A program made the position numbers and the translations under genes. A DNA stretch of 36,139 bases, taken from an uncultured Clostridia bacterium. GTDB lineage: Bacteria > Bacillota > Clostridia > TANB77 > CAG-465. This document shows positions 3,369 through 35,202 of the stretch, piece by piece. The notes under the pieces are model-generated. The model was given only the letters and a program-made list of their open reading frames with translations, ran no database searches and had not been told where the DNA came from. The stretch is taken from positions 106,136-142,274 of the forward strand of contig CALXES010000002.1 of NCBI GenBank assembly GCA_944387385.1, written 5' to 3'. How positions within the stretch are numbered: position 1 is the first letter of the stretch; each line of letters begins with the position of its first letter.

Positions 3369-4001
3369 TTATTTTACTCTAAATATTACCTTTTCGCTAG
3401 TTAAAGCATTCGTTTCATACTCTATTGTAACATCCGATGCGTCAACTGGTACTTGAAAATATACTGTTCCTGTGGCCTTTTTACCTGAAGATAAACTTGC
3501 AGAAAAAATAGAATCATCAGCAGAATAAAAACTATCACAATTATATCCATCTGCATAACAAGTAAAATCTAGAGATGTTGCTAATTGATCACTACTAGAT
3601 AAATTTTCAAACTCAAAAGTAGCTGCTATAACTTTACATCCATCATTTACTGTAGCATATTGACTATATCCAGTAAAATTATCATTTAAAGATTGATAAG
3701 TAAGTTTTAAAAAATTATTAGTAAAAGTTTCCCCAACATTATATTCAGTTTTTTCTTCCGGTTGAACTTCGGAGTTTGAATTATCTTCTACTTGTGTATT
3801 TGAACTATTATTATTATTTTCTGAATTAGTATCATCACTACTAGAACCTCCTATAGCTCCGATAATAACAAGAACTAATAAAACAATAAGAATAATTTTA
3901 ACTACTGATACACTCTGTCTCTTTTTACAATTTGGACATATTTTGGCTGATTCATCCATTTCTGTTCCACAGTATTTACATTTTTTTACTTTGTTTTCCA
4001 T
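3369..4001 (-). CDS. Zinc-ribbon membrane protein with DUF4352-like extracellular domain
   Basis: The 210-residue protein has three parts. An N-terminal zinc ribbon has Cys8, Cys11, Cys22 and Cys25 in two CxxC knuckles. One transmembrane helix spans about 32-51. A Ser/Asn/Asp-rich linker then leads to an Ig-like C-terminal domain at about 85-210, in the style of DUF4352 proteins (telomeric-repeat-like or MPT63-like fold). The zinc ribbon should face the cytoplasm and the Ig-like domain the outside. The biochemical role is unknown. A strong GGAGGAG ribosome site precedes the ATG. It is transcribed divergently from the XRE regulator at 4142, with which it shares an operator-like dyad, and it ends in a strong terminator. 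The domain order is clear; the family name is from memory. Confidence 0.8.
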   Translation of the reverse strand: MENKVKKCKYCGTEMDESAKICPNCKKRQSVSVVKIILIVLLVLVIIGAIGGSSSDDTNSENNNNSSNTQVEDNSNSEVQPEEKTEYNVGETFTNNFLKLTYQSLNDNFTGYSQYATVNDGCKVIAATFEFENLSSSDQLATSLDFTCYADGYNCDSFYSADDSIFSASLSSGKKATGTVYFQVPVDASDVTIEYETNALTSEKVIFRVK

Positions 4002-4055
4002 AACTCCTCCTATATAAAAATAAATTTTAACAAATAATATTATTAAGTCAATTTA

Positions 4056-4084
4056 AGTATATATCAATTTAAATTAAAAGTCAA
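4056..4084 (-). promoter_or_regulatory. Promoter of the zinc-ribbon/DUF4352-like gene
   Basis: Minus strand TTGACT (4079-4084), 17 nt, TATACT (4056-4061). The -35 overlaps the left arm of the dyad at 4081-4098. A second possible pair, TTGACT-16-TAAAAT, lies closer to the gene. Confidence 0.65.
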
Positions 4085-4098
4085 CGACACATCGTTGA
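4081..4098. promoter_or_regulatory. Putative operator between divergent promoters
   Basis: The dyad TCAACGA-CACA-TCGTTGA has two perfect 7-bp arms. It touches the -35 box of both the minus-strand promoter (4079-4084) and the plus-strand promoter (4095-4100). This is where an XRE-type dimer would be expected to repress both genes. Binding by the 79-residue regulator is an inference. Confidence 0.55.
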
Positions 4099-4124
4099 TT
4101 ACAAAAAATTTTTCTTGTTATAAT
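4095..4124 (+). promoter_or_regulatory. Promoter of the XRE regulator
   Basis: TTGATT (4095-4100), 18 nt, TATAAT (4119-4124), followed by AGGAGG and the start at 4142. Confidence 0.65.
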
Positions 4125-4141
4125 TTTAATAGGAGGATTTT

Positions 4142-4381
4142 ATGACAATATCTGAAGCAGTCTCTAAAAGAATTTTAAATCTCTGTAATAACTATAATAT
4201 AAGTATTAATAAACTTGCTACAATTAGCTATCTAACGCAGTCTACTGTTCAATCCCTAATTAATGGTGATAGTAACAATCCCAAGCTTTTAACTATAACA
4301 CGAATTTGTTATGGTCTAAACATCTCTTTATCTGATTTTTTTGATGATGATTTATTTAAAAACTTAGATATAAAAATATAA
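4142..4381 (+). CDS. XRE-family helix-turn-helix regulator
   Basis: The product is a 79-residue protein that is little more than one Cro/CI-type DNA-binding domain. Helices 2-3 lie around residues 20-42 (INKLATISYLTQSTVQSLIN) and are followed by the typical LLTITRICYGLNISLSDFF helix 4-5 region. There is no sensor domain, so it probably acts as a simple dimeric repressor. It is the only plus-strand gene in the window. It has a clear AGGAGG site and promoter and ends in a strong bidirectional hairpin. The dyad over its -35 suggests autoregulation and control of the divergent zinc-ribbon gene. Short single-HTH proteins of this kind are common in Firmicutes; the targets here are inferred from position only. 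Confidence 0.9.
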   Translation: MTISEAVSKRILNLCNNYNISINKLATISYLTQSTVQSLINGDSNNPKLLTITRICYGLNISLSDFFDDDLFKNLDIKI

Positions 4382-4417
4382 AGCATAGATAAATTATGAA
4401 TTTTTTTATCTATGCTT
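4381..4417. terminator. Bidirectional terminator between the XRE gene and the transketolase operon
   Basis: A perfect 13-bp stem (4381-4393 with 4405-4417) has an 11-nt loop. T-rich tracts follow on both strands, so it can end the convergent transcripts from both sides. Confidence 0.8.
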
Positions 4418-4424
4418 TTATTAT

Positions 4425-5330
4425 TTAAAATTTACTTATTATATTTTCTTTTGTAAGTCCAAAATATTTATAAACTTCTTTAGCACTTCCAGATTTTCCA
4501 AATGTATCGAGTATTCCTATTTTATCTAATTTTTTTGGATATTCTTCACATAGTATATTTGAAATAATACTTCCAATTCCACCTATTACACTATGATCTT
4601 CTATTGAAACTAATTTTTCAGTTTCTTTTGCACATTTTAATATCGCCTCTTTGTCTACCGGTTTTATACTGTATAAGTCTACTACTCTTATATGTTTTCC
4701 TTGATTTTCCAATTCTTTTTTAGCCTCAAGTGCAATACTTACTGTAGAGCCATATGCAAATACAGTACCATCTTTCCCTTCACCAAAAGTATGTGATCCA
4801 CCTATATTAAATTCAAAGCTATCATCATATATATCCTCAACATCACTTCTTCCAAGTCTTATATATTTTGGTCCTTCTTCGTTCATACATTTTGAAAGTA
4901 TTTTTTTAGTACTAATATCGTCTGCTGGAGATAAAACTTTCATAGTAGGTATTACATTCATTAAAGCAACATCTTCTATGCATTGATGAGTAGGACCATC
5001 TTCTCCTACCATAACTCCAGCATGCGTAGCACATAAATTAACATTAACATGCGAATAAGCTGCAGTATTTCTTACCTGATCATAAGCTCTTCCAGCCATA
5101 AATATTGCAAATGTAGATGCAAATACAGTTTTTCCTCCAAGCGCTAATCCACAAGCAGTTCCAACTAAGTCTTGTTCGGCAATACCAACATCTATATGTC
5201 TTTCTGGATATTCCTTTCTAAACATATCTGTTTTTGTTGCTGAAGCCAAATCTGCATCTAAGACTACAACATTTTCATCTTTTCCTATTTCAACTAAAAA
5301 TTCGCCATAAGCTTTTCTTGTTGATTTCAT
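4425..5330 (-). CDS. tktB: Transketolase, C-terminal subunit
   Basis: This 301-residue protein corresponds to the pyrimidine-binding (PYR) and C-terminal domains of transketolase, encoded apart from the thiamine-diphosphate-binding half at 6244-7047. The likely cofactor-activating glutamate is Glu52 in DVGIAEQDLVG, and the GEDGPTHQ loop with His115 contacts the cofactor and substrate. With the N-half it should transfer two-carbon units between ketose and aldose phosphates in the pentose phosphate pathway. The start ATG shares one base with the stop of the upstream coiled-coil gene (TAATG), with GAGGTGAG inside that gene, so translation is probably coupled. It is the last gene of the operon and is followed by a strong terminator. 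Confidence 0.93.
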   Translation of the reverse strand: MKSTRKAYGEFLVEIGKDENVVVLDADLASATKTDMFRKEYPERHIDVGIAEQDLVGTACGLALGGKTVFASTFAIFMAGRAYDQVRNTAAYSHVNVNLCATHAGVMVGEDGPTHQCIEDVALMNVIPTMKVLSPADDISTKKILSKCMNEEGPKYIRLGRSDVEDIYDDSFEFNIGGSHTFGEGKDGTVFAYGSTVSIALEAKKELENQGKHIRVVDLYSIKPVDKEAILKCAKETEKLVSIEDHSVIGGIGSIISNILCEEYPKKLDKIGILDTFGKSGSAKEVYKYFGLTKENIISKF

Positions 5331-6232
5331 TAACTCACCTCTTCAATCACATTATTAAAATTAAGTAGCTCTAAAGTTGATATATCATTTAAAAGCATTT
5401 CATTATACATCTTATACTCTGATACTTTAGGCTTAACATTTTTATTTGAATTTATTCTATCAAGCATAGTTGTGTTTTCTGCATTAATAGTATTTAAAAA
5501 ATCTCTATTAAAGAAAAAAGGAATTTTTTTATCATTATCTATTATTGTTAATGCATTAACATTTAACTCTCCTAATTCATATTCTGATACAATACTTTTA
5601 ACAAAAGAATCTATAGCATCTGATTTATATCCACAGTTATTAGTAATGCTAACTATTTCATATAAGCTTTTATTCTCTGGAATATATTTTTTATTTATTA
5701 CTTCAAGTCTCTTCAAATTATAATTTTCAAGCATAGCTTTTTTTATTTTAGTTTTTCCAGTCAATTTATCTAAAATACTTACTTTTGAATACTTATTAAT
5801 ATTTGAATCAATTTGTTTTAACTCCTCTTCTCTTATTAAATCATTTGCCCTAGAAGCTATTAAGTTTATATATTGCTTTAATTTCAACTCATTATTTTCA
5901 TTTATTAATTCATTAATATTTTTTAGTTTTATATCATCTAAATATAAAATATTATTCAACAATTTATATTCCTCTATATTTTCTTCATCTTCTAATTTTT
6001 GATCATACTTTTGTATTATTTCATCAAGCTTACTAATATAATCGTTAAGTTTATCTAAGACTTTATCGTTTGTATCTTTTAACTCCTCTACTTTAATGCC
6101 AATATTTTGAGCAAAATTATATTTAGTGATAAATTCATCATTATTTTTTAAAATATTTTCATTAATTTTTGTAGCTTTATCCTTTAATTTATCTAATCTA
6201 AAACTAAGATCTTTTTTAGATATATTTTCCAT
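5330..6232 (-). CDS. Coiled-coil protein of unknown function inside the split transketolase pair
   Basis: The product has 300 residues and no recognisable family. There is no signal peptide or transmembrane segment, so it should be cytoplasmic. Residues 1-170 are Lys/Glu/Asn/Leu-rich with heptad-like spacing and probably form coiled coil. The C-terminal part, about 170-300, is less charged and more globular (around NKSLYEIVSITNNCGYKSD and KKIPFFFNRDF). It lies 11 nt after the transketolase N-half and overlaps the start of the C-half by one base, with good ribosome sites at both junctions. It is therefore a real operon member and not a passenger with its own promoter. A role in assembly or localisation of the transketolase, or in the surface-glycan genes upstream, is possible but unproven. 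Confidence 0.75.
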   Translation of the reverse strand: MENISKKDLSFRLDKLKDKATKINENILKNNDEFITKYNFAQNIGIKVEELKDTNDKVLDKLNDYISKLDEIIQKYDQKLEDEENIEEYKLLNNILYLDDIKLKNINELINENNELKLKQYINLIASRANDLIREEELKQIDSNINKYSKVSILDKLTGKTKIKKAMLENYNLKRLEVINKKYIPENKSLYEIVSITNNCGYKSDAIDSFVKSIVSEYELGELNVNALTIIDNDKKIPFFFNRDFLNTINAENTTMLDRINSNKNVKPKVSEYKMYNEMLLNDISTLELLNFNNVIEEVS

Positions 6233-33409: not shown

Positions 33410-33453
33410 TTCTTTCACCTCAAATTATATTTTACACAAAAAAATTTTTAAAG

Positions 33454-33681
33454 TCAATTTATTCTCATATTATCCACAATATCCATAATATTTTCATAAT
33501 TTCCACACATTACTTTATCTATAAATTCTTTTTTATCATCATAATCCACATTTTCCTTAGTTAAAATAATCTGAACTTTATTCTTTTCTTTCTTTTCATA
33601 ATTTAAAAACCAGTAATTCTCCATAACAAAGCATATACACCATATACCAATAACGGATATTACAAATATAATATAATCCAT
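33454..33681 (-). CDS. Small single-span membrane protein of unknown function
   Basis: This 75-residue product starts at ATG 33679-33681, 6 nt after AGGTG; a GTG three codons upstream overlaps that site. One hydrophobic helix at about 3-20 is followed by a basic stretch and an acidic helical tail (DYDDKKEFIDKVMCGNYENI). No family is recognised. It precedes ruvA by 44 nt with no terminator between, so the two are probably co-transcribed. Confidence 0.65.
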   Translation of the reverse strand: MDYIIFVISVIGIWCICFVMENYWFLNYEKKEKNKVQIILTKENVDYDDKKEFIDKVMCGNYENIMDIVDNMRIN

Positions 33682-33697
33682 ATAAATCACCTGCTAT

Positions 33698-33726: not shown

Positions 33727-33758
33727 AAAAGAACAGGTACAAAAATTTGTACCTGTTC
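33725..33758 (-). terminator. Terminator of the 181-residue protein gene
   Basis: A perfect 13-bp stem (33731-33743 with 33746-33758) is followed by six T residues on the minus strand. Confidence 0.88.
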
Positions 33759-33765
33759 AATTATT

Positions 33766-34311
33766 CTAGAAGCTTCTTTTAACTTTGAATTTAATTGAGT
33801 AAAACACCCTATTTGTATCAAACAAAAGATATGCAAAATTCTCATCAAATTCCTCAGGCTTTACTTCTAGAATTTTGTTTACCCTCATTATGTCTCCATC
33901 GTCGGCAATAAAAATCTTAGAAGCTTTTAAATCTCTTTTAAGAAGATCTACACCCTTCGGTGCTTGATTATAAGGTTTATACTTTTCATCCAATAATTGA
34001 CTTAAGTCAATCATTTGACATGTGTATTCCTCATCATCAGCTCCATAAAGGATAACTTGTCCATCCTCAACTACTATCTCTTTACTTCTAGTGAAGATTC
34101 TAGAAAGAATTGAAGATTTTTCCTCTCTTTGAGATTTCTTTTCAGCCTTTTGTGCTTCTTTCTCTTCAATTTTTTTTCTGTTTTCTTCTTTTTTTAGGTT
34201 GATTTTAGCATTTTTCTTTTCTAAAGTTGTACCATTGTACATAAAGCTATTAAATGCTTTTTTTCCTCCTAAAACAAGATTTTCAGATTTTAAAAATAAT
34301 TCCTTTGCCAT
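33766..34311 (-). CDS. Unknown 181-residue soluble protein with charged coil
   Basis: Translation probably starts at ATG 34309-34311, 8-9 nt after AGGAG; an ATG two codons earlier is too close. No family is recognised and no signal or membrane segment is present. Residues 40-75 are an almost uninterrupted Lys/Glu helix. The C-terminal part (about 80-181) is a compact mixed domain with DGQVILYGADDEEYTC and FAYLLFDTNRVFYSIKFK. The gene stands alone between strong signals: a perfect consensus promoter, a leader of about 97 nt with competing hairpins, and a strong terminator. That suggests significant, regulated expression. Confidence 0.72.
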   Translation of the reverse strand: MAKELFLKSENLVLGGKKAFNSFMYNGTTLEKKNAKINLKKEENRKKIEEKEAQKAEKKSQREEKSSILSRIFTRSKEIVVEDGQVILYGADDEEYTCQMIDLSQLLDEKYKPYNQAPKGVDLLKRDLKASKIFIADDGDIMRVNKILEVKPEEFDENFAYLLFDTNRVFYSIKFKVKRSF

Positions 34312-34408
34312 ATTCATCGGCTCCTTTCTAATAATTATTAAAATAGTCAAATTTAATGGCGTATCAACAGCCTATCAAATTTGACAGGCAATATAACAAT
34401 ATTAACCT
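34312..34408 (-). promoter_or_regulatory. Structured leader with mutually exclusive pairings
   Basis: In RNA terms (minus strand), one hairpin pairs GCCTGTCA with TGATAGGC (plus-strand span 34370-34389). A competing fold pairs GTCAAATTT (34377-34385) with AAATTTGAC (34346-34354), enclosing a GGC/GCC helix with a 9-nt loop (34358-34372). The two folds share bases and cannot form together. The AGGAG site lies about 25 nt further on. I recognise no known riboswitch class. Confidence 0.4.
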
Positions 34409-34414
34409 ATCATA

Positions 34415-34443
34415 ATTATACCACATTTATATATTTATGTCAA
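34415..34443 (-). promoter_or_regulatory. Promoter of the 181-residue protein gene
   Basis: A perfect consensus: minus strand TTGACA (34438-34443), 17 nt, TATAAT (34415-34420). Confidence 0.88.
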
Positions 34444-35002: not shown

Positions 35003-35026
35003 AATAACCTGCAAATGCAGATTATT
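35003..35026 (-). terminator. Terminator after the 42-residue ORF
   Basis: CTGCA/TGCAG (35009-35013 with 35016-35020) extends by AATAA/TTATT past one mismatch, with about eight T residues following on the minus strand. The ORF's stop codon lies in the outer stem. Confidence 0.75.
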
Positions 35027-35150
35027 CATTTTTATTATTTTGCAATAATTCATTGTAATGCTCTAAAGAAGCTTTTTTATCTTTAACATTCATTTCAAGT
35101 GATTTTAAAAATTCTGTTCTATTATCTTCATTTACTCTATTACTTTCCAT
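35022..35150 (-). CDS. Small 42-residue hydrophilic protein
   Basis: A short reading frame starts at ATG 35148-35150 with a very good ribosome site (AAGGAG, about 8 nt before) and ends right in a terminator stem. Both facts argue that it is translated. The product is charged, rich in Asn, Glu and Lys, with a helical stretch EFLKSLEMNVKDKKASLEHY, and has no membrane segment. No family is recognised. It follows the DUF2238-like membrane protein by 52 nt without a terminator and is likely its operon partner. Confidence 0.6.
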   Translation of the reverse strand: MESNRVNEDNRTEFLKSLEMNVKDKKASLEHYNELLQNNKNE

Positions 35151-35202
35151 ATCAAACTCTCCTTATTTTTATATTTATCTAATTACATATGAATACATAG
35201 TA

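Follow-up and report, generated by a model that had tools for sequence, protein, structure and literature searches.

A candidate RNA refolding cascade in the leader of an orphan gene of uncultured Clostridia

Introduction

An orphan gene of an uncultured Clostridia bacterium (GTDB lineage Bacteria; Bacillota; Clostridia; TANB77; CAG-465) is preceded by a leader that can fold in mutually exclusive ways, and the question raised by this locus is whether the leader is an RNA switch and, if so, of what kind. The DNA analyzed, which from here on will be referred to as the window, is the whole stretch of 36,139 nt at positions 106,136-142,274 of the forward strand of contig CALXES010000002.1 (assembly GCA_944387385.1). 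Searches of an open-access library gave no description of this leader, and, to our knowledge, leaders in which all alternative folds are visible in covariation are rare. On balance, we lean toward the view that this leader acts in cis, gating translation of the orphan gene through a cascade of RNA refolding.

Results

Promoter and leader of the orphan gene

The promoter, the leader, and the orphan gene all lie on the minus strand of the window (Table 1). The first-pass annotation had described the promoter as a perfect consensus, and we indeed find 12 matches in 12 positions between TTGACA, which starts at 34443, and TATAAT, which ends at 34415, with a TG preceding the -10 element. All 13 homologous loci have TTGACAT...TATAAT at the corresponding position, and most of the 13 leaders start with AGGT or AGAT at the predicted +1. 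Setting the +1 of the window by its distance from the -10 element places it at 34408, which, with the ATG at 34311, gives a leader of 97 nt, the length that had been estimated; transcription of the leader is inferred from the promoter. The promoter pattern itself is widespread (26 of 28 genomes of the genus match), and, among 30 matches that were fetched and inspected by eye, those before other genes lacked this leader. Overall, all 13 homologous loci carry a near-identical promoter and a structured leader.

Table 1. Features of the orphan gene locus in the window
Feature	Position	Strand	Basis
Promoter: -35 TTGACA and extended -10 TGnTATAAT, 17-nt spacer	34415..34443	-	12/12 sigma-70 consensus
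Segment 1, transcript 5' end (AGGTTAATAT)	34399..34408	-	Predicted +1; P1 partner is segment 2
Segment 2 (ATATTGCCTGTCA): P1 3' arm and P2 5' arm	34382..34394	-	Swap test, P1 and P2
Segment 3 (TGATAGGC): P2 3' arm and P3 5' arm	34370..34377	-	Pair counts, 8 leaders
Segment 4 (GCCATTAAATTTGAC): P3 3' arm; GCCAT able to pair with start-codon region (P4)	34346..34360	-	
Shine-Dalgarno AAAGGAG	34321..34327	-	Sequence
Start codon and codon 2 (ATGGC), complementary to segment 4 GCCAT (P4)	34307..34311	-	Own-versus-swapped test
Orphan gene, 181 aa	33766..34311	-	

Both of the folds proposed earlier can be drawn in the leader of the window. In the first, GCCTGTCA (34389-34382) is complementary to TGATAGGC (34377-34370). 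In the second, GTCAAATTT(GAT) (34385-34374) pairs with (ATT)AAATTTGAC (34357-34346) in a long stem, which encloses a GGC/GCC helix (34372-34370 with 34360-34358) and is present in the minimum-free-energy fold; the GTCAAATTTGAT/ATTAAATTTGAC pairing in this stem lengthens the helix that we call P3 below in the species of the window. The fold is better than chance as judged by dinucleotide shuffles (z -2.85 over 105 nt, with 1 of 200 shuffles equal), and the first 70 nt have a folding z of -5.05. The coordinates given to the leader in the first-pass annotation were right, but the functional unit also takes in a 5'-terminal hairpin (34408-34386) and the start-codon region.

Four successive pairings in 13 homologous leaders

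Comparison of the 13 leaders revealed that each of four segments (AGGTAAT, ATTGCCYRTC, GATGGGC, and GCCCATC, in the order of segments 1 to 4) complements the next, giving four successive helices: P1 (segments 1-2), P2 (segments 2-3), P3 (segments 3-4), and P4 (segment 4 with the start-codon region). P2 and P4 are incompatible with P1 and P3. Because MAFFT alignments of all 13 leaders were unreliable, we used a hand alignment and then an alignment-free swap test with controls. The hand alignment is biased toward pairing by construction, and rows were dropped from it for L006 (P1 and P3), L011 (P3), and L004 (P2 and P3). In the eight alignable leaders, 56 of 56 P2 cells and 45 of 49 P3 cells (91.8%) are paired, compared with 28-40% and 31-56%, respectively, when the arms are slid, and each of the two helices has two pairs in which both sides have changed. 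P3 passes a column-shuffle control (0 of 500) and P2 fails it (48 of 500). In L010, a linked G-C-G-C to A-T-A-T change runs across segments 1-4 of the hand alignment; L006 and L011 have no clear P3.

The swap test compares the duplex energy of two windows from the same leader with the energies obtained when the partners are exchanged between species. In a map of 121 window pairs from 11 leaders (L001 and L012 were dropped from the 11-leader tests as near-duplicates), the 15 strongest signals all come from P1, P2, P3, or P4 windows. The observed value was reached in 0 (P1), 0 (P2), 11 (P3), and 23 (P4) of 50,000 permutations with 11 leaders and in 0, 0, 1, and 1, respectively, with all 13; as the species are related, the swap permutation does not amount to a phylogenetic test. 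The non-partner pairs 1-3, 2-4, 1-start, 2-start, and 3-start were not significant in this test, and the pair 1-4 gave a weak signal (308 of 50,000), as would be expected if segment 1 resembles segment 3. When 15-nt leader windows were scanned against the start region, the sole peak lay at +41 to +63.

The swap z-scores are not normally distributed, and the raw z overstates. In five homologous control stretches outside the leader, z fell below -3.5 in 1, 0, 3, 0, and 0 of 66 tests each; a z of 3-4 is therefore not decisive, and the support for P3 and P4 is weaker than z alone would indicate. The upstream control stretch probably holds a real terminator of the HAD gene. With calibrated values, p < 0.001 was obtained in 6 of 30 local leader tests versus 3 of 228 local tests in coding sequence and in 2 of 47 leader-by-start tests versus 1 of 576 leader-by-coding-sequence tests. 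We conclude that support is strong for P1 and P2, good for P3, and moderate for P4. The covarying pairs that the earlier reading had called for in homologous leaders are thus present, in places with several segments changed together, and both of its mutually exclusive alternatives are maintained across the 13 leaders, as a switch of RNA folds would have them.

Matched inverted repeats could also arise at the level of DNA. One such explanation is that the segments, which closely follow a strong promoter, are a cluster of inverted operator half-sites to which a repressor binds; half-sites are indeed repeated in inverted orientation, and on the complementary strand the swap signals of P3 and P4 are equally strong. 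However, in all 13 leaders the fold of the transcript strand is more stable than that of the complementary strand (z below -2 in 12), and the P1-P3 helices contain 26 G.U and 1 A.C against a composition baseline of ~2:1 (p = 0.0006) in a scoring that treated G.U and A.C alike. This excess favors RNA over a DNA operator; the 6 G.U and 4 A.C of P4 alone are uninformative. Further, the spacing of the segments is variable, and complementarity to the start codon would not be expected of an operator, so we regard the operator as quite improbable. Quasi-palindrome template switching in replication, which would keep the repeats matched without selection, suits the short adjacent inverted repeats of P1-P3 but predicts neither the G.U excess nor a P4 that spans a separate AT-rich linker, and we consider it extremely improbable.

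The annotation had recognized no RNA class in this leader, and our searches agree: at the Rfam gathering score, tRNA alone is matched in the window, and the leaders of the 12 other loci have no match. Weak snoRNA and miRNA matches (E ~2) were rejected as chance. A model of the leader (R1), run over 28 genomes, returned eight best matches that are all leaders of the orphan gene, five of which were used in building it; the remaining matches have E values of at least 0.09, and none of the 7 of 35 that were inspected is a leader of this kind. R1 misses the leaders of L004, L005, L006, L010, and L011. A ligand-binding riboswitch in particular is not supported. The alternative folds do lie close to the start codon, as in a ligand-sensing riboswitch, but the unpaired parts and loops of the leaders differ in length and sequence with no conserved aptamer core, Rfam matches are absent, and a single gene is concerned, which makes a riboswitch very improbable.

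Predicted folding order and access to the start site

The four pairings, their conservation, and the order in which they are predicted to fold are computed here, the last from partition functions of growing transcripts. In this prefix folding, all 13 leaders are dominated by P1 at 30 nt and by P2 at 44 nt. At 64 nt, P1 and P3 are dominant together in 10 of 13, and L006, L010, and L011 retain P2; L004 finishes in another fold. At full length, L003, L012, and L013 have at least five expected P4 pairs and are divided between the P1+P3 and P2+P4 states, and L007 is divided between P1/P3 and P2.

The possible targets of segment 4 differ between leaders. P4 falls on the start region in L008 (TACCCAT/ATGGGTA), L004 (AGCCAT/ATGGCT), and L003 (CGCCCAT/ATGGGTG) and over the Shine-Dalgarno (SD) sequence in L012 (CCTATC/GATAGG) and L013 (TTCACCT/AGGTGAA); it is poor in L009, L010, and L011 (-3.4, -2.2, and -5.2 kcal/mol, respectively). 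In the close pair L001/L002, a change of GCCAT to CCCAT in segment 4 is matched by a change of ATGGC to ATGGG at the start. In all 12 leaders tested (L004 was left out), forcing P1 and P3 leaves the SD at least slightly more accessible than forcing P2 does, and the loss with P2 forced is at least 0.15 in eight of these. In the leader of the window, SD accessibility is alike in both states (0.65 and 0.64), and P4, which has 5 bp (GCCAT/ATGGC), has an equilibrium occupancy of ~0.1 pair. The link to the ribosome site that had been proposed is real in most relatives, through pairing of segment 4 with the start codon or SD, but weak in the copy in the window.

These predictions suggest the following sequence of events. 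Segment 1, at the extreme 5' end, would pair with segment 2 to form P1; segment 3, on emerging, would capture segment 2 to form P2; and segment 4 would in turn capture segment 3 in P3, allowing P1 to re-form. Once the start region has emerged, segment 4 may quit P3 for the start codon or SD (P4), alongside P2. The start site would thus be free with P1 and P3 and blocked with P2 and P4, and several leaders would be balanced between the two states. We infer translational control, and which state is ON, from this arrangement. Such a leader would act as a kinetic gate without a small-molecule ligand, delaying or limiting initiation on new transcripts, and might be tipped by a trans factor such as an RNA-binding protein, possibly the orphan product itself. 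For the species of the window, the prediction is a closed state that is seldom occupied; given a P4 of ~0.1 pair at equilibrium, it may be relevant solely while the RNA is being transcribed or in the presence of a partner molecule, or it may be decaying.

A simpler role for the 5'-terminal hairpins would be to stabilize the mRNA by blocking 5'-end-dependent decay, with the alternative pairings a by-product and no switching. The exact location of P1 at the predicted +1 in most leaders would suit this role, as would the mostly open SD, which comes after the paired segments. For stabilization, however, one hairpin suffices, and here segment 2 matches both 1 and 3, segment 3 matches 4, and segment 4 matches the start, each with a specificity for its own leader; we therefore think this explanation unlikely. 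An ermC-type translational attenuator, in which stalling of a ribosome on a leader peptide shifts the pairings, shares the identical 1-2/2-3/3-4 logic, and 9 of 13 leaders have a possible ATG, GTG, or TTG in the first 13 nt with a frame of at least 6 codons. The peptide is conserved solely within the closest pairs (L001/L002 and L012/L013), though, L009 and L011 have no such ORF, and most of these frames have little space for an SD upstream, all of which makes attenuation of this kind distinctly unlikely. Two further candidates were rejected. A terminator switch or transcription attenuator would need a terminator with a U-run, and no terminator-like site lies between 34312 and 34408 in the window. 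As to an RNA thermosensor, the predicted folds of the 13 leaders show no consistent change in start-site access between 15 and 48 °C.

Comparison with known systems

Folding pathways with coupled covariation are known best from toxin mRNAs. In hok mRNA, linked changes in mutually exclusive helices reportedly reflect conservation of the folding pathway, which runs through metastable 5' hairpins and determines whether the start site is accessible. The leader described here shares such linked covariation of helices that exclude one another with the hok family (hok/sok, type I toxin-antitoxin). In contrast to hok, the product here is a protein of 181 aa with a charged helix and a beta domain and not a small hydrophobic toxin, and the whole cascade lies within the 5' leader. 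Opposite the leaders, the best antisense promoter-like sites match 8-10 of 12 consensus positions, and their positions differ. PMC6733600, which also treats folding-pathway covariation in toxin mRNAs and cites a 1997 paper on hok covariations, describes how, in aapA3/IsoA3 of Helicobacter pylori, successive transient hairpins sequester the SD during transcription (PMC6733600) and then give way to a 5'-3' long-distance interaction, with an antisense RNA acting on the system (PMC6733600). The likeness to aapA3 lies in the successive transient hairpins; here the alternation is among four leader segments and the start region.

In translational attenuators of the ermC type, helices 1-2, 2-3, and 3-4 are mutually exclusive and control initiation. 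The helices are mutually exclusive here too and would likewise control initiation, but there is no conserved leader peptide, and the start blocker is segment 4, one step further along. Thermosensing leaders of the cspA type are long and control translation through alternative folds; unlike them, the leader here has no consistent predicted response to temperature, and its product has no sign of being a cold-shock protein. The logic of the leader thus resembles that of the hok and aapA3 mRNAs and of the attenuators, but the leader is not a member of those families because the type of product differs and a conserved leader peptide is lacking.

It is possible, though doubtful at present, that the leader represents a class of RNA timer that is new and needs no ligand. 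Its five-part strand-exchange relay (1-2, 2-3, 3-4, and 4-start) would be contained in the first 60 nt of an mRNA that is chromosomal and encodes no toxin; the start codon would open and close in step with transcription, and selection would keep the relay while most of the bases change. If true, timed refolding would be in use outside toxin-antitoxin systems, before an ordinary chromosomal gene. The 13 divergent natural versions make the strand-exchange relay directly testable, and the leader offers a starting point for understanding a gene family that is restricted to the genus and kept beside ruvA.

The orphan gene family and its neighborhood

Of 28 genomes of the genus, 13 encode a homologue of the orphan protein, one close relative being from an uncultured Clostridia metagenome-assembled genome (MAG). 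Searching 191 genomes sampled from the order with a 13-row profile gave 14 matches at E <= 0.01: the 13 homologues of the genus and a member of another family (E = 0.0017, covering 61 of 179 positions). Outside the genus, therefore, none of the sampled genomes convincingly holds a homologue. The orphan gene adjoins ruvA in 11 of 13 loci, the remaining two being at contig ends, and is preceded by a HAD_SAK_2 gene in 8 of 13; on account of these conserved neighbors, it looks chromosomal and vertically inherited. A second, partial copy in G020 (L014) was omitted, as no leader lies within its contig.

The description of the protein as an orphan stands: comparison with Pfam, NCBIfam, PHROGs, and PADLOC gave no reliable match, and no relative was found in viral contigs. 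PHROG 12214 (function unknown) was the best candidate, with an E value of 1e-4 at best and in 2 of 13 members, and was rejected as probable coiled-coil similarity; the one match in a PDB sequence search was rated chance. AlphaFold2 predicts the structure with a mean pLDDT of 71.9 (~90 over residues 91-180). The N-terminal half is helical and charged and is modeled with low confidence, and the C-terminal domain (approximately residues 81-180) is rich in beta structure and modeled with confidence. This fold had no Foldseek match in the PDB at E <= 0.001, and VIA-align gave a best Z of 3.9, which does not in itself demonstrate a new fold.

ruvA is present in 26 of 28 genomes, and the sequence upstream was examined in 18 of these 26 loci. 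In one further genome (L089, in G004), a 162-aa protein is encoded upstream of ruvA behind a promoter of the same type. The leader at this syntenic, divergent locus forms one large hairpin with a 3-bp P1 and no good P4. The protein is similar in size to the orphan protein but hardly at all in sequence (hhalign probability 3%) and is possibly a fast-diverged or replaced member of the family. The ruvA matches in G007:C14 and G013:C1 (L099 and L100) have one internal stop each, due to either assembly error or a pseudogene. In many loci, a small ORF resembling a membrane protein lies directly before ruvA (at ~33440-33690 on the minus strand of the window); by eye, it ends in a sequence like DNMRIN in several loci. 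A 12-bp bidirectional terminator-like hairpin at 33731-33758 separates the orphan gene from the ruvA region. On the other side, a 42-aa ORF (MESNRVNEDNRTEFLK...) is found at 35020-35151 on the minus strand, and a similar small ORF lies upstream of the gene in L012 and L013. A tRNA gene is located at the contig end (36083-36139 of the window), and in L012 (1-700) 23S, 5S, and tRNA genes precede the locus. The orphan gene thus probably adjoins an rRNA operon, which would explain the many contig ends.

Finally, we note a CRISPR array in an uncultured Clostridium MAG (L016, 2793-3225), which lies beside an ORF (3504-5390) that, judged from its motifs, looks like a reverse transcriptase-Cas1 fusion. 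The genome of the array has no copy of the orphan gene and no other copy of the spacer that matches G014 (see below). Taken together with its edges, one spacer agrees with the G019 orphan gene at 50 of 53 positions, and another is an exact match to a gene start in G014. Four of six spacers resemble the ribosome-binding site and ATG of genes, all in one orientation, which would fit spacers taken from mRNA.
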